Positions 7,296 to 63,707 of a stretch of 64,000 nt of DNA are shown here, piece after piece. Positions within the stretch are counted from its first letter, which is position 1, and every line of letters begins with the position of its first letter. Under the pieces are notes generated by a model that saw only the letters and a program-made list of their open reading frames with translations, had not been told where the DNA came from and searched no databases. Origin of the DNA: Corallococcus macrosporus DSM 14697 (GTDB lineage Bacteria > Myxococcota > Myxococcia > Myxococcales > Myxococcaceae); NCBI RefSeq assembly GCF_002305895.1, contig NZ_CP022203.1, positions 1,714,501 through 1,778,500 of the forward strand. Reading direction: 5' to 3'. Both the position numbers and the translations under genes were made by a program.

Positions 7296-8561
7296 ATGCG
7301 CGTCGAGCTGCTGTGCACCGGTGACGAGCTCGTCACCGGCCTCATTACGGACACGAACAGCAACTACCTGGAGGCCCGCCTCTTCGACCTGGGCGTCAAG
7401 GTCGAGCGCGTCGTCCTCGTCGGAGACGTGCGGCCGGACATCACCCGGGCCCTGACGGAAGCCGCGTCGCGCGCGGACGTGGTGGTGGTGTCGGGAGGGC
7501 TGGGGCCCACCGCGGACGACTTCACCCTCGAATGCGCCGCGAGCGCCGCGGGCGTGCCGTTGGAGGAGGACCCGCGGGTGCTCGGCTGGCTGCATGAGCG
7601 TTATGCCGCGCGCGGCATTCCGCCCAACCCGAGCGCCCTGCGCATGGCGCGCGTCCCCAGGGGCTCCGAGCCCGTGAAGAACCCGGAGGGCTCCGCGCCG
7701 CTCGTGCTGATGAAGCTGGGAGGCGCCCAGCTCTTCTTCCTCCCGGGCGTGCCCCGGGAGTTCAAGGCGCTGCTGGAGGCCGAGGTGCTGCCGCGCATCC
7801 GCGCCACCCTGGACGCCCGCCCCGGGCGCACGTACCGGGCCTTCCGGCTGCTGCGCACGGTGGGCATTCCGGAATCGGAGCTCGACCTGTCCGTCGCGCC
7901 CATGGCGCCGCGGCATCCCCGCGTCGTGTTCGGCTTCCGCACGCATGCGCCGGAGAACCACCTCAAGCTGATGGCGGAGGCCTCCTCCCAGTCGGAGGCG
8001 GACGCCGCGCTCGCCGCCGCGGAGGCGGAGTGCCGCCAGGTGCTGGGCCCACGCATCTTCGGCGCGGACGCGGAGACCTACGCCGCGGCGCTCCTCGAAA
8101 CGCTCCGCCGGGCGGGGGCCACGCTGGCGGTGGCGGAGAGCTGTACGGGCGGCCTCATTGCCCAGCAGCTCACGGCGGTGCCGGGCTCCAGCGACGTCTT
8201 CATCGGCGGCGCCGTCGTGTATTCGGAGAAGATGAAGTCCGCATGGGTGGGAGTCCCCCCCGAGCTCCTCGCGCGGCACACCGCGGTCTCTCGCGAGACG
8301 GCCGTGGCCATGGCGGAGGGCGTGCGCGCCGCCTGCGCAACGACCTTCGGCCTGTCGGTGACGGGGTACGCGGGGCCCGGGGGTGGTACGCCGGAGGACC
8401 CCGTCGGCACCGTGTACTGCGCGCTGGCGGCCCCCGGCCTGCCCACCCGCGTTGAGCGCATCTCTGTCACCGGCGACCGCGACCGCGTGCGCCTGTTCGC
8501 CGCTTCCTTCACGCAGGAAATGCTGCGGCAGCACCTGCTCGCCGCGCCCGCCACCCCATGA
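7296..8561 (+). CDS. cinA: CinA-family nicotinamide-nucleotide amidohydrolase
   Basis: 421-residue two-domain protein. The N-terminal MoaB/MoCF-like domain (LLCTGDELVTGL, SGGLGPTADDFT) is the ADP-ribose pyrophosphatase part of CinA. The C-terminal domain (VAESCTGGLIAQQL, TGYAGPGGGTPEDPVGTV) is the PncC nicotinamide mononucleotide deamidase that recycles NMN, for example after NAD-dependent ligation. The length equals the family norm. In many bacteria cinA lies directly upstream of recA; here recA is about 2 kb away and in the opposite direction. Its stop overlaps the next ATG (ATGA), which suggests translational coupling with the membrane protein gene that follows. Confidence 0.93.
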   Translation: MRVELLCTGDELVTGLITDTNSNYLEARLFDLGVKVERVVLVGDVRPDITRALTEAASRADVVVVSGGLGPTADDFTLECAASAAGVPLEEDPRVLGWLHERYAARGIPPNPSALRMARVPRGSEPVKNPEGSAPLVLMKLGGAQLFFLPGVPREFKALLEAEVLPRIRATLDARPGRTYRAFRLLRTVGIPESELDLSVAPMAPRHPRVVFGFRTHAPENHLKLMAEASSQSEADAALAAAEAECRQVLGPRIFGADAETYAAALLETLRRAGATLAVAESCTGGLIAQQLTAVPGSSDVFIGGAVVYSEKMKSAWVGVPPELLARHTAVSRETAVAMAEGVRAACATTFGLSVTGYAGPGGGTPEDPVGTVYCALAAPGLPTRVERISVTGDRDRVRLFAASFTQEMLRQHLLAAPATP

Positions 8562-10063
8562 GCCGTTCCAAGTCCAAGCGCCCCCGTCCGCCTTCCTCCG
8601 AACCGGTCGCGCCGGAAAGTCCCGCTGTGGCGCCCGTCGCAGCCCAGCCGGAGGAAGGGGCCGCGTCCACCGCGGCGCCGCCGGCGGCCGAGCCGGCTCC
8701 CGCGCCAGAGTCCGCCGCGTCATCACCGGGGGCGCCCGTGTCGGGAGGACTGCCGCTCAACGCCGCGCGCGTGTGGCTGTCCGCATATCGCGTGGAGGTG
8801 GGGCTGTTCCTGGTCGCCTTCGTGGTGCTGGCCAGCTTCAGCTCCCAGCGCTTCCTGCGGCAGAGCGCGGCCCCTCACTTCGTCTACCAGGCCCAGGCGT
8901 GGCTGGAGGGACGGCTGGACGTGGACCCGCGGGTGCTGCCCAACATGGAGGACTGGGCCTGCGTGCGCGTGGTGGAGGGGGACAAGGTCCGCTGCGCCGG
9001 CCGGCCGCTCCCCACGGACCGCTGGTACGTCAGCTTCCCGTCCTTCCCCGCGGTGGCGATGCTGCCCTTCGTGGCGCTGCACGGCTACCAGTTCAATGAC
9101 ACCTCGTTCGGCGTCATCGTCGGCGCGTTGGCGGTGGCGCTCTTCTATTCGCTGCTGCGCTTCCTGGCGAAGGAAGGGGAGACGGCACGCAACCGCAACG
9201 AGAACGTGGCCCTGGCGCTCATCCTCGCCTTTGGCACCCTGTTCTTCTATTGCGCCATCCGGGGCGAGGTCTGGTTCAGCGCCGAGGTGATGGGCGTGGC
9301 GCTGACGTGTCTCTACGTGCGCAACGCGGTGCGGGCGCAGCGCCCGTTGCTCGCGGGCCTGTTCTTCTCCATGGCGACGCTCACCCGGACGCCCTTGCTC
9401 TTCACGGGCCTCTTCTTCGTCCTGGAGGCGCTGTGTCCCGGCCCGGAGCCCCGCCTGGCGCAGCTCAAGGCCCTGGCGCGGGACTGGAAGCCCGCGGCCA
9501 GGAAGGTGGGCCTCTTCACCCTGGGCGCCGCCCCGCTGGCGGGGCTCGCGGCCGCGTACAACGTCTATCGCTACGGCCGGCTGAGTGAGTTCGGGCACGC
9601 GTACCTCTTCAACAACCGCGTCAACGTGGACATCGACCGCACGGGGCTCTTCAACTGGGAGTACCTGCCACGGAACCTGGAGGCGGCCTTCTTCAAGCTG
9701 CCCACGGTGTCCCTGTCGCCGCTGAAGCTGGCCTATGACCCGCACGGGCTGACGCTGCTGCTGACGCTGCCGTTGCTCGTCTTCCTGCTGGTGCCCAAGA
9801 CGCGTCCGCGGCTGCATTGGCCTGCGTGGCTCACGGTGGCGGTGTGCGCGCTGCCTGGGCTCTTCTATCAAAACACCGGCTACATGCAGTTCGGCTTCCG
9901 GTTCAGCCTCGACTACACGCCCTACCTTCTCCTCCTCTTCGCGCTGGGGGGGTGGTCTCTGCGGAACCGGGCGGTGCTGGCCGCGGTGGCGCTTGGCGTG
10001 CTGGTGAACTTCTGGGGAGCCGTGGCCTTCCGCGGCTACACGGAACTTGTCCGGAACTGGTAG
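8558..10063 (+). CDS. Polytopic membrane protein with Ala/Pro-rich N-terminus, possibly glycosyltransferase-like
   Basis: 501 residues. The first 65 are low-complexity, rich in Ala, Pro, Glu and Ser, and start with basic SRSKSKRPRPP, so they are probably cytosolic. From about residue 77 roughly ten hydrophobic helices alternate with short loops; an early loop holds DPRVLPNMEDWACVRVVEGD and a late one FGFRFSLDYTPYL. This layout resembles ArnT/PMT-type (GT39/GT-C) membrane glycosyltransferases or their inactive relatives, but I cannot point to a diagnostic DE/DD catalytic pair with certainty, so the function stays open. The ATGA overlap with cinA argues that the two are translated together. Confidence 0.7.
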   Translation: MSRSKSKRPRPPSSEPVAPESPAVAPVAAQPEEGAASTAAPPAAEPAPAPESAASSPGAPVSGGLPLNAARVWLSAYRVEVGLFLVAFVVLASFSSQRFLRQSAAPHFVYQAQAWLEGRLDVDPRVLPNMEDWACVRVVEGDKVRCAGRPLPTDRWYVSFPSFPAVAMLPFVALHGYQFNDTSFGVIVGALAVALFYSLLRFLAKEGETARNRNENVALALILAFGTLFFYCAIRGEVWFSAEVMGVALTCLYVRNAVRAQRPLLAGLFFSMATLTRTPLLFTGLFFVLEALCPGPEPRLAQLKALARDWKPAARKVGLFTLGAAPLAGLAAAYNVYRYGRLSEFGHAYLFNNRVNVDIDRTGLFNWEYLPRNLEAAFFKLPTVSLSPLKLAYDPHGLTLLLTLPLLVFLLVPKTRPRLHWPAWLTVAVCALPGLFYQNTGYMQFGFRFSLDYTPYLLLLFALGGWSLRNRAVLAAVALGVLVNFWGAVAFRGYTELVRNW

Positions 10064-59133: not shown

Positions 59134-59706
59134 ATGAAGAAAGTCGCAACGCTCGCCTGTCTGTTGGCCCTGTTGGGAGCGATTCCCGCCCATGCCGCCG
59201 GTTTGGAGGACGTGTTCGGCCGGGAGGTCCCCGTGGGAAAGGGGCGGCCCACCCTGGTGCTGTACGCCAACAAGGGCTCGCGGGACGAGCTGCGCCAGCA
59301 TGCCTACTCGTTCATCTATGACTTGCGAGAGGAGCGGCCCATCGTCCTGATTCACGTGGACCTGCGGGACGTCCCGGGCCTCTTCAAGGGCATGGCGCGC
59401 GGTGAAATCAAGAAGAGCCACCGCGAGTCCATCGAGCACATGCGGAACATCTTCCGCCAGCACGGCGAGGCGCCGCCTCCCGAACTGGAGTCGTCGCTCT
59501 ACATGGTGGCGGACGCCAAGGGCGAGCCACACCAGGCCATGGGCCTGAAGAAGGGCTTCGGCCAGGTCGTCGCCCGGGTGCTGGGCCCGTCTGGGCAGGA
59601 GGTGGCCCGAGGCCCCTTCCCCGAGAGCGCCCGGAAGCTCGGCCAGTCGATGGCCTCCGCCCCGGAGCGCCTTTCGACGCTCCGAGTGGTGGACATGTCC
59701 CGCTGA
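59134..59706 (+). CDS. Secreted thioredoxin-fold-like protein without CxxC
   Basis: 190 residues. Signal peptide MKKVATLACLLALLGAIPAHA. The mature part (VPVGKGRPTLVLYANKGSRDELRQ, VLIHVDLRDVPGLFKGMARG, LYMVADAKGEPHQAMGL) follows the strand-helix order of thioredoxin-like YtfJ/peroxiredoxin folds but has no cysteine in the mature chain, so it is not a redox enzyme. Unknown function. It converges with the AAA+/release-factor gene, 15 bp apart. Confidence 0.72.
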   Translation: MKKVATLACLLALLGAIPAHAAGLEDVFGREVPVGKGRPTLVLYANKGSRDELRQHAYSFIYDLREERPIVLIHVDLRDVPGLFKGMARGEIKKSHRESIEHMRNIFRQHGEAPPPELESSLYMVADAKGEPHQAMGLKKGFGQVVARVLGPSGQEVARGPFPESARKLGQSMASAPERLSTLRVVDMSR

Positions 59707-59721: not shown

Positions 59722-62544
59722 TCAGTTGCCAGGCGGCTGGGAATCCGTGGGCGGACGCGAAATCCACGCGGCGATGAAGACGTCCAGCTCGCCTCGCAGG
59801 ACGTCCTTCACGCGCGGCGTGCCGGCGCCGGTGCGCGGGTCCTCCACCCGGGCGCCTCGTCCCAGGTAGTAACGCCGGGCCTCGTCCGTGTGGCTGCCCT
59901 GGCCATAGACGACGCGCGCGGCGATGTCCTTCAGTTCGTCAAGCTCCGTGGCGCCGGCGAGGGTGAGCACGCGCCCGGAGGACTCGTCCTTTACCGTCAC
60001 CTCGGTGCGGACGCGCTGCAGGTAGGCGCCCTCGTGGCTCTTCATGGGCCGGCCCTGGACCTCCAGATAGGCCAGCTCCTCCTCGGAGATGGTGCCGCCG
60101 CGGTGGACGCGCACGTAGGCCCGCTGGCGCTTCTCGTCCTCCAGCCGCCGGTGCATGCCCGCCTCGCCCGCGAGGAAGCCATACGCGCCGGGGCCCGCGA
60201 TGCGCACGACGACGCGCGAGGGCTCCTCCGCCTCGGCGACCGCGACGGCCTCGTAGCCGCGGCGCTGGGCCCACCCCAGGTACATGGTGGCCAGCTCCTG
60301 CACCCACGTCTCCTGCGCCTCCGCCGAGTCACTGGCGCAGATGTCCACCAGCGCCTCGGTGTCCTGCGTGGTGGCGCCGGAGGCGTGGAGGGCCGCGGAC
60401 ATCTGGACCTCGCGCGCCACGTCCTCCACCTGCTTCGCGGCGGAGCCGAGCTGCACCTCGTTCTTCGCCTCGCGCACCAGCCGCCGCGCGAACAGGACGG
60501 CGGCCTCCAGCCGCTCCAGTTCGTTGATTTGCGCCTCCACGGCGCGGAAGGCGCGGAGGACCTCGGCGGCGCGCGTGGGGTCGTCCCAGAGGTTGGGCGC
60601 CTGCGTCTCCGCCAGCAGCTCCGCGCGGCGCTGCTCCAACTGCGGGCGGCCGGTGGAGTCCGCCAGGGCGCGCGCCTTGCCCACCAGGCGGTCCATCTCG
60701 AACAGGAGCGACTTGCGGTCCAGCCGCCGCTTCACCGGTGCCGCGCGCGCGGACGGCAGGAGGATTTGCGCGGTGGGGGAGGGCGGCGGCGCGGCGGGCT
60801 CGGCCACGGCGGTGACGCGGCCTCCCGGGCGGGCCTCGACGCGCACGGGCGTGCCCGGAGGCAGCGGCTTGCGGGCAATCTCCACGGCCAGGGCCGCGGT
60901 GAGCGTCTTCTCGATTTCCCGCTGCAGGTAGCGCGCGCCGAACTGGGGCGAGTAGCCGCGCTCCACGAGCAGGTCCACCACCGCGGGTGTCACCTCCACG
61001 TCCAGGGCGCGCGCGCGGATGCCCTCGCGCTCCAGGACGCGGCCGACCTCGCGCTGGGCAATCTTGCGGATGTCCACCTTGGACAGGGGGCGGAAGTGGC
61101 AGATGGCGTCGAAGCGGTTGAGGAACTCAGGACGGAACGCCTCGCCGATGCGCCGGTCCACCTCGGGCACCATCTCCTCCGCGCGGCGCGCGCCCGTGAA
61201 GCCCATGCCGGACTCGCGGTACACCTCCGCGCCCACGTTGGACGTGGCGACGATGAGCGTGTTGTTGCAGGACACCGTCTCGCCGGCGCCGTTGACGAAG
61301 GTGCCCTCATCGAAGAGCTGGAGGAAGCGGTCATGGACGCTGCGCGCCGCCTTCTCGAACTCGTCGAGCAGCAGCACGGTGAACACCTTGCCGTCCAGCA
61401 GCGCGCTCAGCTCGCCGCGCCGCGTCTCCAGGGCCGGGGCCCACGTCGCGCCGAAGGGGACGCTCTCATCGCCGTCATTGGGGTAGTCCGCCATGTTGAG
61501 GCGCACCAGCCTGTCCGCGGAGCCGAACAGGTACTCCGCGAGCAGCTTGGCGAGCTGCGTCTTGCCCACGCCCGTGGGGCCCGCGAAGAGGAACACGCCC
61601 AGGGGGCGGCGCGGGTCGTTGAGGCCCGCCTTGAGCAGCGCCACCGAGCGCAGCACCGCGCTCACCGCGTCCGTCTGGCCGAGCAGCCGTTCGCCGAAGA
61701 AGCGCTCCGTCTCCTCCAGGTCCAGGGGCATCGCGTCGTCCACGACGAAGCGAGGCAGCCGGGTGGCCGCGCAGAAGCGGCTGAGCACGTCCTCCGGGCC
61801 CACGTGGTCCTTGGCCGCGCTCGCGGCCTCGGCCGCCGTCTCCTTCAGCAGCTCAATGGCCTTGCGCGGCATGCGCTGCGCGAGCAGGAACTTGGAGGAC
61901 AGGCGCAGCGCCAGGTCACACGCCGCCGGGTCGATGGGCAGCCGCAGCTCGCGCTCCAGCTCCTCCGCCACGCGGCCCAGCACCCAGCGGGCCTTCTCCG
62001 GAGGGGGCTCGTGCAGGGGCAGCAGGTGGAGCCGCTCGGCCAGCGCCTCGTCGGAGCGGAGCAGCTCCTGCACGCGCTTGGGCTCGGTTTCGAAGATGAA
62101 GCGCAGGCCGACGGTGCGCAGCCCGCGCACGGCGACGGGGGCCAGGGGGCCGCCCAGGGCCGCGGGCAGGTCACGGATGTAGACGATGGGGCGGGGGTGC
62201 CGGGACAGGTAGGTCAGCAGCTCCTCGAAGCTCTCCGCCGCCTGACGCTGGGTGCTGCGCGCCAGGATGTTGGCGACGGACACCTCCACCACGCGGGCGT
62301 TCGCCAGGCCGGCGTCCACGCGCCCCTCGGCGATGCGCCGCGCCACCTCCTGCACCAGGGCGCTCTTGCCCACGCCGGCCTCGCCGGACAGCAGCGGATG
62401 CTTGCCGCCCCGCGTGAGCAGGCCAAGCACCTCCGTCACCGCGGCGTCCACGCCGTGCGCGGCCGGCAGCTTCCCCTCCCGCGCCAGCGCGGTGAGGTCG
62501 CGGTCGATGAGCCGCTCCTGGTCCTCGCTCTTCCTCGTCGCCAT
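59722..62544 (-). CDS. ClpA/B-like AAA+ ATPase fused to a GGQ-less release-factor-2-like domain
   Basis: 940 residues, two parts. Residues 1-600: tandem AAA+ modules as in ClpA/ClpB without the N-domain and middle domain. D1 has Walker A GEAGVGKS (54-61) but a degenerate Walker B (VYIRDLP); D2 has GPTGVGKT (322-329), VLLLDEFEKA (Asp394, Glu395), sensor-1 VATSNVG, FRPEFLNRFD and GARYLQREIEKTL. The usual D2 pore loop GYVG is absent. Residues 605-930 align along RF2: the PCRF WDDPTRA, then SAEAQETWVQELATMYLGWAQ, AYGFLAGEAGMHR and the end DPRTGAGT...LRGELDVFIA. The GGQ peptidyl hydrolase loop is replaced by SHEGAYLQR and the SPF stop-codon reader is missing. No second release factor gene adjoins. 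The ribosome or a release-factor site is the likely target. Confidence 0.88.
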   Translation of the reverse strand: MATRKSEDQERLIDRDLTALAREGKLPAAHGVDAAVTEVLGLLTRGGKHPLLSGEAGVGKSALVQEVARRIAEGRVDAGLANARVVEVSVANILARSTQRQAAESFEELLTYLSRHPRPIVYIRDLPAALGGPLAPVAVRGLRTVGLRFIFETEPKRVQELLRSDEALAERLHLLPLHEPPPEKARWVLGRVAEELERELRLPIDPAACDLALRLSSKFLLAQRMPRKAIELLKETAAEAASAAKDHVGPEDVLSRFCAATRLPRFVVDDAMPLDLEETERFFGERLLGQTDAVSAVLRSVALLKAGLNDPRRPLGVFLFAGPTGVGKTQLAKLLAEYLFGSADRLVRLNMADYPNDGDESVPFGATWAPALETRRGELSALLDGKVFTVLLLDEFEKAARSVHDRFLQLFDEGTFVNGAGETVSCNNTLIVATSNVGAEVYRESGMGFTGARRAEEMVPEVDRRIGEAFRPEFLNRFDAICHFRPLSKVDIRKIAQREVGRVLEREGIRARALDVEVTPAVVDLLVERGYSPQFGARYLQREIEKTLTAALAVEIARKPLPPGTPVRVEARPGGRVTAVAEPAAPPPSPTAQILLPSARAAPVKRRLDRKSLLFEMDRLVGKARALADSTGRPQLEQRRAELLAETQAPNLWDDPTRAAEVLRAFRAVEAQINELERLEAAVLFARRLVREAKNEVQLGSAAKQVEDVAREVQMSAALHASGATTQDTEALVDICASDSAEAQETWVQELATMYLGWAQRRGYEAVAVAEAEEPSRVVVRIAGPGAYGFLAGEAGMHRRLEDEKRQRAYVRVHRGGTISEEELAYLEVQGRPMKSHEGAYLQRVRTEVTVKDESSGRVLTLAGATELDELKDIAARVVYGQGSHTDEARRYYLGRGARVEDPRTGAGTPRVKDVLRGELDVFIAAWISRPPTDSQPPGN

Positions 62545-62886
62545 GTCTTTTCTGCCGCCCCCTCGCCGGAGCGCACTCTAACCCCGCTGAACCGCCGAGG
62601 TGAGCGCACAATCCCCGACAAATACATGCCACGGGCGAAGGCTGCCCGCGAGCACTTCACTGGGAGCGAGGGAGAAGGGGCCCGGACGGGCCCGACGAAG
62701 CGCCATCGCCAGTTCAGCTTCCAGAAAAACAGCCAGCAGCGACCTCCCGCCTGCTGGCGCGCGGGGCGGCTGTCGGGGTGGGAGCCGCCTCTGGCGGACT
62801 CCCGGACCTCCGAGCGCCTCCACCACCGGGGCGGAACACTCGGGAGGCGGAAGCCACCTCGGGTGGCTCCCCTTTCCCCCACGGCC
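62545..62886. other. Intergenic region between AAA+/RF fusion and HNH gene
   Basis: 342 bp with no credible gene. It holds two hairpins: GGCGGCT/AGCCGCC (62765-62789) and AGCCACC/GGTGGCT (62852-62868). The left end, A-richer (acaaatacatgcc near 62620), would carry the fusion gene's promoter; I see no strong consensus. Confidence 0.55.
62852..62868 (-). terminator. Hairpin after the HNH gene
   Basis: 7-bp stem AGCCACC/GGTGGCT with a 3-nt loop, 19 bp after the HNH stop in the direction of transcription. There is no U-tract. Confidence 0.5.
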
Positions 62887-63429
62887 CTACTCCTGCAGTT
62901 CCACGTGCCAGTAGGCGACGTCCCTGAGGAACTTCGCCCAGGACATGGGCATGCCCTTCTCGAACAAGAACGTCAGGTGCATCGCCTCGGGCACCTTCTT
63001 CGGCTTCGTGGGCGCCGTGCGCAGGGCCATGCGGGCCTGCTCCGGCGTCCGGTTGCCCTTCTTCTGATTGCAGGGCACGCACGCGATGACGATGTTCTCC
63101 CAGCTCGTCTTGCCACCCTGCGCGCGCGGCAGGACGTGGTCATACGTGGCCTCCGGGCGCGTCACCTTGGTGCCGCAGTACTGGCAGCGGCAGTGGTCCC
63201 GCAGGTAGACGTTCTCCCGGCTGAACTTCACACCCTTGGGGCGCCGGCGCAGGCCGCGGATGAAGCGGATGACGGAGGGCATGCGAATCTCCACCGTCAC
63301 GGACCGCACCACGCGGTCCTCGTACTCCTCGACCACTTCGACCTTGCCCTGGAAGATGAGCATCACCGCGCGTTGCCAGGGAACGCGCGCGACAGGTTCG
63401 AACGACTGACTCAGGACCAGCGTCTCCAT
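62887..63429 (-). CDS. HNH endonuclease
   Basis: 180 residues. Zinc-ribbon plus HNH: LRDHCRCQYCGTKVT, then TYDHVLPRAQGGKTSWENIV with the catalytic His in DHVLP and Asn in WENIV, and ACVPCNQKKGNRTP with the second Cys pair and final residue. All motifs are intact, so it should be an active nuclease. The N-terminal 70 residues are a conserved module seen in many free-standing HNH proteins of actinobacteria and myxobacteria. It lies 25 bp downstream, on the same strand, of a tRNA cluster and may be expressed with it. Biological role is unknown. Confidence 0.9.
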   Translation of the reverse strand: METLVLSQSFEPVARVPWQRAVMLIFQGKVEVVEEYEDRVVRSVTVEIRMPSVIRFIRGLRRRPKGVKFSRENVYLRDHCRCQYCGTKVTRPEATYDHVLPRAQGGKTSWENIVIACVPCNQKKGNRTPEQARMALRTAPTKPKKVPEAMHLTFLFEKGMPMSWAKFLRDVAYWHVELQE

Positions 63430-63608: not shown

Positions 63609-63634
63609 ATGTGTGGACGACGTGCTGCCAGAAG

Positions 63635-63707
63635 TGCCGGCCCCCGGAGTCGAACCGGGTCCTCCTGTGCTTCAAACAGGCGCGCGGACCGCCTACGCCA
63701 GACCGGC
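63635..63707 (-). tRNA. tRNA-Phe(GAA)-like
   Basis: 73 nt. Acceptor GCCGGTC/GGCCGGC with one U:G; discriminator A. D-stem GCG/CGC with loop TAGGCGGTC. Anticodon stem CCTGT/ACAGG with loop TTGAAGC (anticodon GAA). T-arm CCCGG TTCGACT CCGGG. Best preserved of the group. An AGCTTCA/TGAAGCT hairpin lies 1 bp before its 5' end. Confidence 0.65.

Follow-up and report, generated by a model that had tools for sequence, protein, structure and literature searches.

In the 64,000-nucleotide stretch of Corallococcus macrosporus DSM 14697 analysed here (the window; positions 1714501-1778500 of a complete 8.97 Mb genome whose closest named relatives are Myxococcus), an open reading frame of 940 amino acids on the minus strand (62544..59722, ATG start, no internal stop) encodes a ClpA/ClpC-like double AAA+ ATPase (residues 12-580) fused N-terminal to a full-length part with the fold of release factor 2 (RF2; residues 607-930). 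An earlier reading made from the letters alone (the sequence-only reading) had described this fusion of a ClpA/B-type ATPase with a full-length RF2-like part, and the open reading frame, the Pfam matches and the RF2 profile search given below bear it out. Three families scored above the Pfam cut-offs: AAA_2 (313-481), ClpB_D2-small (487-569) and PCRF (636-799). RF-1 (PF00472) is not among the Pfam families listed for the protein, which also has no Clp N-domain. The features of the gene are as follows.

59722..62544, minus strand: fusion gene, 940 amino acids, ClpA/ClpC-like double AAA+ and RF2-fold part
61735..62511, minus strand: AAA+ domain D1 (12-270) with an intact Walker A (G-x-x-GVGK[ST]), KYRG pore loop absent
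62170..62190, minus strand: D1 Walker B position (119-125), hhYIRD in place of hhFIDE
60802..61734, minus strand: AAA+ domain D2 and small subdomain (271-581)
61558..61581, minus strand: D2 Walker A GPTGVGKT (322-329)
61438..61455, minus strand: D2 pore-loop position FGATWA (364-369), no GYVG
61360..61377, minus strand: D2 Walker B VLLLDE (390-395)
61198..61206, minus strand: putative ClpP-docking tripeptide MGF (447-449)
60727..60801, minus strand: variable linker between the AAA+ and RF2 parts (582-606)
60370..60726, minus strand: RF2 domain 1-like helices (607-725), WDD motif
60109..60369, minus strand: RF2 domain 2-like part (726-812)
59890..60108, minus strand: shortened RF2 domain 3, catalytic arm (813-885), least conserved
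60025..60033, minus strand: GGQ position, reads EGA (838-840)
59755..59889, minus strand: RF2 domain 4-like C-terminus (886-930)

A Clp-type ATPase joined to an RF2 fold

The AAA+ half can be aligned to Escherichia coli ClpA over both D1 and D2; the E. coli genome used for comparison was NC_000913. All rows of the family alignment carry the D2 Walker A GPTGVGKT, Walker B VLLLDEFEK, sensor 1 TSN, arginine finger R477 and sensor 2 GAR. In D1, Walker A is normal and the Walker B position reads R-D, not D-E (R124 in 56/57 rows, D125 in 57/57). The D1 ring probably binds ATP but hydrolyses it poorly. The protein has two AAA+ domains with a Walker A in both and active-type motifs in D2, and we filed it with the Clp/Hsp100 ATPases, not with the release factors. 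The aromatic pore loops (KYRG in D1, GYVG in D2) are both missing. FGxxWA stands at the D2 pore-loop place, and F364, G365 and W368 are invariant there (57/57); W368 may stand in for the lost pore tyrosine. The sequence-only reading had already noted the intact D2 ATPase, the absent GYVG and the altered D1 Walker B, and the family alignment agrees on each.

The loops by which Clp ATPases bind ClpP carry the tripeptide (L/I/V)-G-(F/L) (PMC8745299). In the fusion family, residues 447-449 read [ILMV]GF, with the G and the F present in 57/57 rows while the flanking residues vary, and residues 445-452 form a loop of low predicted confidence (pLDDT < 50) in the full-length model. The family therefore has such a tripeptide on a flexible loop of its last AAA+ domain; the M at its first position, which the window protein shares with 21/57 rows in all, lies outside the published consensus. 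At the corresponding position E. coli ClpA has IGL and the ClpA of the same genome has IGF, and the tripeptide is missing from E. coli ClpB and from the ClpB-type paralogs L006 and L008 of this genome. Two strong ClpP genes are present in the genome, and the solved structures nearest to the full model are the ClpC-ClpP and ClpC1-ClpP1P2 complexes.

Elsewhere in the same genome, at 5.943-5.952 Mb, lies a tandem trio of ClpA/B-type genes (L004, L002 and L003; L149:2248-11420), one product being ~850 amino acids and the other two ~1150. They have no GYVG, a D1 Walker B departing from DE and no RF2 part. In trees the AAA+ part of the fusion clusters with this trio (support 100/98-100) on long branches, and we regard the three as possible relatives of that part, a tentative assignment.

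The second half is homologous to RF2 from end to end. A profile of residues 598-940, built from 28 sequences, spans all of E. coli RF2, domains 3 and 4 included (E 2e-23), and hhalign against myxobacterial RF2s gave 99.9% (E 9e-30) over 330 columns. An AlphaFold model of this half (pLDDT 83) matched free E. coli RF2 in Foldseek (1gqe; E 9e-18, TM 0.67/0.64), which places it on the RF2 fold that had been assigned from the sequence. Domain 2 retains W..EL..MY and GxGA.GFL.GE.G.HRR. The domain 4-like C-terminus, the best-conserved piece of the half, retains RRY, EDPRTG and KDVLRGELD.FIAAW, and the RF2 order from PCRF to the C-terminal DxRTG is kept, as described before.

What has been lost are the working sites. 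We scored retention of RF2 residues position by position against 18 RF2s, and the fusion keeps 2/7 conserved residues in domain 1, 13/43 in domain 2, 2/24 in domain 3 and 9/24 in domain 4. The elements that read stop codons are gone: the GAGG helix tip (G135-G138) is lost, and the SPF loop (S205-D208), whose absence the sequence-only reading had pointed out, is deleted in all members. Also lost are G250, Q252, R278-S279-Q280 (RSQ) and N283. Against E. coli RF2, domain 3 has two deletions, of 9 columns before GGQ and of 22 columns before the switch region. At the GGQ site the second glycine is invariant (57/57), and the glutamine position is taken by A, E, R, S, T or N, with no Q among the commonest residues over the 57 rows. 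The SHEGAY previously read at this place is correct for the window protein; as a family trait it does not hold, being shared by close relatives only. The fusion thus lacks the intact GGQ-type hydrolase site of PrfH and ArfB, and the RF2 fold is retained for something other than termination chemistry. The losses of the GAGG tip and of RSQ, the ClpP-loop tripeptide and the neighbouring tRNA array (see below) are additions to the sequence-only reading.

Distribution, selection and genomic setting

We scanned 84,980 species genomes by short peptide patterns, from which members much below 59% identity could escape. Full-length orthologs (59-97% identity) were restricted to Myxococcales-type records and one contig labelled Comamonas (L012, BNCN01000002.1). 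The latter is probably a mislabelled myxobacterium, because its fusion is 94% identical and it shows Myxococcus synteny (HNH gene, tRNAs and neighbours). The scan also matched one Bacteroidales Clp, in the AAA+ part only. Within the class, the fusion is found in 84/147 genomes (77/116 of those of good quality) and in 19/48 genera, one of which belongs to another family of the same order; none of 48 further genomes of the phylum has it. The family genomes that lack the fusion include several small ones. As far as searched, then, the fusion is confined to one order, and the conservation across phyla that the sequence-only reading had looked to for support did not appear.

Nearly all carriers have one full-length copy with no internal stop. 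Both halves are under purifying selection: either AAA+ domain has a median dN/dS (the ratio of nonsynonymous to synonymous substitution rates) of 0.11, and the RF part one of 0.18. Within the RF half, dN/dS is highest in domain 3 (0.26) and lowest in the last 43 residues (0.055). These ratios, the lack of internal stops and the presence in 84 genomes rule out a decaying release factor or a frame artefact, and here the earlier claim that selection has kept the frame stands. The halves are likewise fused in the homologs and not found as separate proteins, except that in 1/84 genomes (G109; L090, C1, around 7894-8714) they lie in different frames at the linker, through either a single-base sequencing error or a natural split. 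In a tree of the RF half the fusions form a single clade on a long branch, from which the parent RF2 is not resolvable.

Two other origins or roles were considered and rejected. Relatives on viral contigs match the AAA+ part alone and no viral match has the RF part, which speaks against a viral origin; the PADLOC matches to the fusion are to its AAA+ domain only, and membership of a defence system was set aside.

Upstream of the fusion lie an HNH gene and the remains of a tRNA array:

62700..62722, minus strand: tRNA-Ser(gct), 23-nt remnant between HNH gene and fusion
62887..63429, minus strand: HNH endonuclease gene, 180 amino acids
63453..63524, minus strand: tRNA-Ala(tgc), array remnant
63634..63707, minus strand: tRNA-Phe(gaa), remnant of the same array

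In the window genome the array has decayed to Ala, Phe and Tyr tRNAs and the Ser scrap. In Myxococcus, Pyxidicoccus, Archangium, Hyalangium and relatives, up to ~25 tRNA genes covering most isotypes stand upstream of the fusion, and the order tRNAs - HNH - tRNA-Ser - fusion recurs in many species (loci with arrays include L011, L013, L014, L023, L026, L027, L028, L039 and L090). One large-array species has 80 tRNA genes in total against 62 in the window genome, so the array looks like an extra set. Mycobacterial tRNA arrays also contain HNH and RF-1-domain genes (PMC5966550). Linkage of HNH gene and fusion is found only in the Myxococcus/Corallococcus/Archangium/Hyalangium group. At one array locus (L039:4145-4648) ARAGORN called a tmRNA overlapping array tRNAs, which is probably false.

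No neighbour gene in the window is common to the deep members of the family, and an operon partner was therefore rejected. On the other side of the fusion and convergent with it, 59134-59706 (plus strand) encodes a protein of 190 amino acids that matches no Pfam family, seems to carry a signal peptide and is retained nearby in part of Myxococcus.

What the fusion may do

Our preferred reading, which we hold tentatively, is that the fusion is a Clp-type motor with RF2 as a built-in targeting module, probably coupled to ClpP and probably aimed at the translation machinery. The ClpA/ClpC-like motor would be driven by ATP through an active D2 ring, the D1 ring probably binding ATP but hydrolysing it poorly. 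The C-terminal RF2 fold, which would neither read stop codons nor hydrolyse peptidyl-tRNA, would serve as a non-catalytic targeting module that steers the motor to stalled or idle ribosomes or to a usual partner factor of RF2. Whatever the motor pulls on there, a nascent chain or a bound protein, could be passed on to ClpP by the [ILMV]GF loop. Given this tripeptide, proteolysis-coupled unfolding is no less likely than splitting or eviction. The hexamer, its ATPase activity, its binding to ClpP and to the ribosome or an RF partner, and its substrate are all presumed. Docking of the RF2 part on the ribosome is suggested by the predicted fold only, the contact residues having been lost. A more specific form, in which the dead RF2 is a docking adaptor on the ribosome and the ClpP-coupled unfoldase extracts and degrades nascent chains or factors from stalled ribosomes, seems to us rather unlikely though still a serious candidate.

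In favour of the preferred reading stand the end-to-end RF2 homology and fold, the ClpC-ClpP complexes as nearest structures, the invariant D2 motifs, the conserved tripeptide, the two ClpP genes, the retention of both halves by purifying selection throughout the clade, the tRNA array of the crown group and the precedent of Vms1 and Cdc48. Several observations weigh against it. The canonical pore tyrosines are missing from both D1 and D2, and therefore threading is uncertain. An xGF is also present in three paralogs of the same genome without an RF2 part; the tripeptide was perhaps inherited rather than used in the fusion, and the RF module, placed after D2 on the would-be ClpP side, might hinder ClpP. 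The residues that contact the ribosome are familiar from structures of active RF2 on the ribosome. The contacts with the decoding and peptidyl-transferase centres are among the losses and constraint is weakest in domain 3, so the retained residues give no specific pointer to the A site. The deep members of the family have no tRNA array or HNH gene nearby, from which we take the array to be a later association that lends a translation role weak support. Finally, a non-ribosomal role of the RF2 fold is nearly as likely.

In that case the fold, wholly repurposed, would serve protein binding, regulation or assembly and have no connection to the ribosome, and the machine would be a specialised Clp unfoldase or remodeller whose clients are unrelated. 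Such a role would fit the loss of nearly all RF2-conserved functional residues in domains 2 and 3, and the retained W144, Y152, G185, G190, D335 and R337 resemble residues of the fold. The deep members share no neighbour genes among themselves, and none of the standard termination and rescue factors is missing from the genome (RF1, RF2, RF3, SmpB, an ArfB-like protein and an NFACT protein). With those factors present, a stand-in for a missing one is ruled out; RF1, RF2, RF3 and SmpB being there as well, the fusion is an addition to the translation factors. Three points speak against it: a repurposed module would have had no need to retain all three parts of the RF2 layout; R or K is conserved at 37 positions of the RF half; and in the crown group the gene sits in a tRNA array.

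The sequence-only reading had favoured binding in the ribosomal A site and ATP-driven action there (splitting, eviction or rescue). We consider this model unlikely in a form where the action, which might also be hibernation, is mechanical and involves neither threading nor proteolysis. An RF2 fold with dead centres and a motor that has lost its canonical pore tyrosines agree with it, and inactive A-site proteins such as Dom34 are a precedent (PMC6514570), but it does not square with the lost decoding and peptidyl-transferase contacts and the shortened domain 3, and it leaves the invariant [ILMV]GF loop unexplained. Less probable again is a regulator of termination that competes with RF2 for RF3, PrmC or ribosome-stalk proteins, or that remodels RF1/RF2: RF3 is encoded in the genome and the fusion retains domain 1 as well as the core of domains 2 and 4, yet the GGQ region that PrmC recognises is the most altered. 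A role for the fusion as cargo of a mobile tRNA-array element, working for the element itself, is very improbable; the recurrent order of tRNAs, HNH gene, tRNA-Ser and fusion would suit such an element, but divergent orthologs (57-82% identity) have no array or HNH gene nearby and no viral match has the RF part.

Comparison with known systems

The fusion resembles ClpA and ClpC in its two AAA+ rings, its D2 Walker motifs, sensors and arginine finger, the [ILMV]GF loop in the place where ClpP docks and its nearest folds, ClpC-ClpP. It differs from them in having no N-domain, an altered D1 Walker B, replaced pore loops and an added C-terminal RF2 fold. With RF2 (PrfB) it shares homology and fold over the whole length, the order of domains and the DxRTG C-terminus, whereas the GAGG tip, SPF, the GGQ glutamine and RSQ are absent, domain 3 is shortened and the whole is covalently attached to a motor. 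A survey of release factors by Burroughs and Aravind names RF1/RF2, ArfB and PrfH among the bacterial types, and its text contains none of the terms 'Clp', 'myxo' or 'PCRF' (PMC6514570). A full-text literature search, with subscription papers outside it, found no description of a Clp-RF2 fusion, in line with the sequence-only reading, which knew of none.

Even if it is not targeted to ribosomes, the fusion is a translation factor stripped of every catalytic site whose whole fold selection has maintained as part of a different machine. Its carriers, Myxococcus and relatives, include M. xanthus, which is genetically tractable, and the fusion is hence testable now. That an RF-derived fold can outlast loss of the catalytic glutamine is also seen in Dom34 and MRPS35 (PMC6514570); neither of these has an AAA+ motor, and Dom34 belongs to the eRF1 superfamily. 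The closest functional analogy is Vms1/ANKZF1 with Cdc48/p97, in which an RF-fold protein and an AAA+ unfoldase act in concert on stalled ribosomes (PMC6514570). There, too, an RF fold works with an AAA+ motor, but Vms1 has the unrelated eRF1 fold and recruits Cdc48 through a VIM motif, while the fusion is a single polypeptide with both an RF2 fold and a Clp motor. Should the RF2 part direct the protein to ribosomes, this would be a new bacterial coupling of stalled translation to unfolding or degradation that uses no ssrA or alanine-tail tag, and an independent parallel to eukaryotic Vms1-Cdc48; a ribosome-directed Clp protease of the kind outlined above, which we doubt somewhat, would by this analogy be its one-chain bacterial counterpart.
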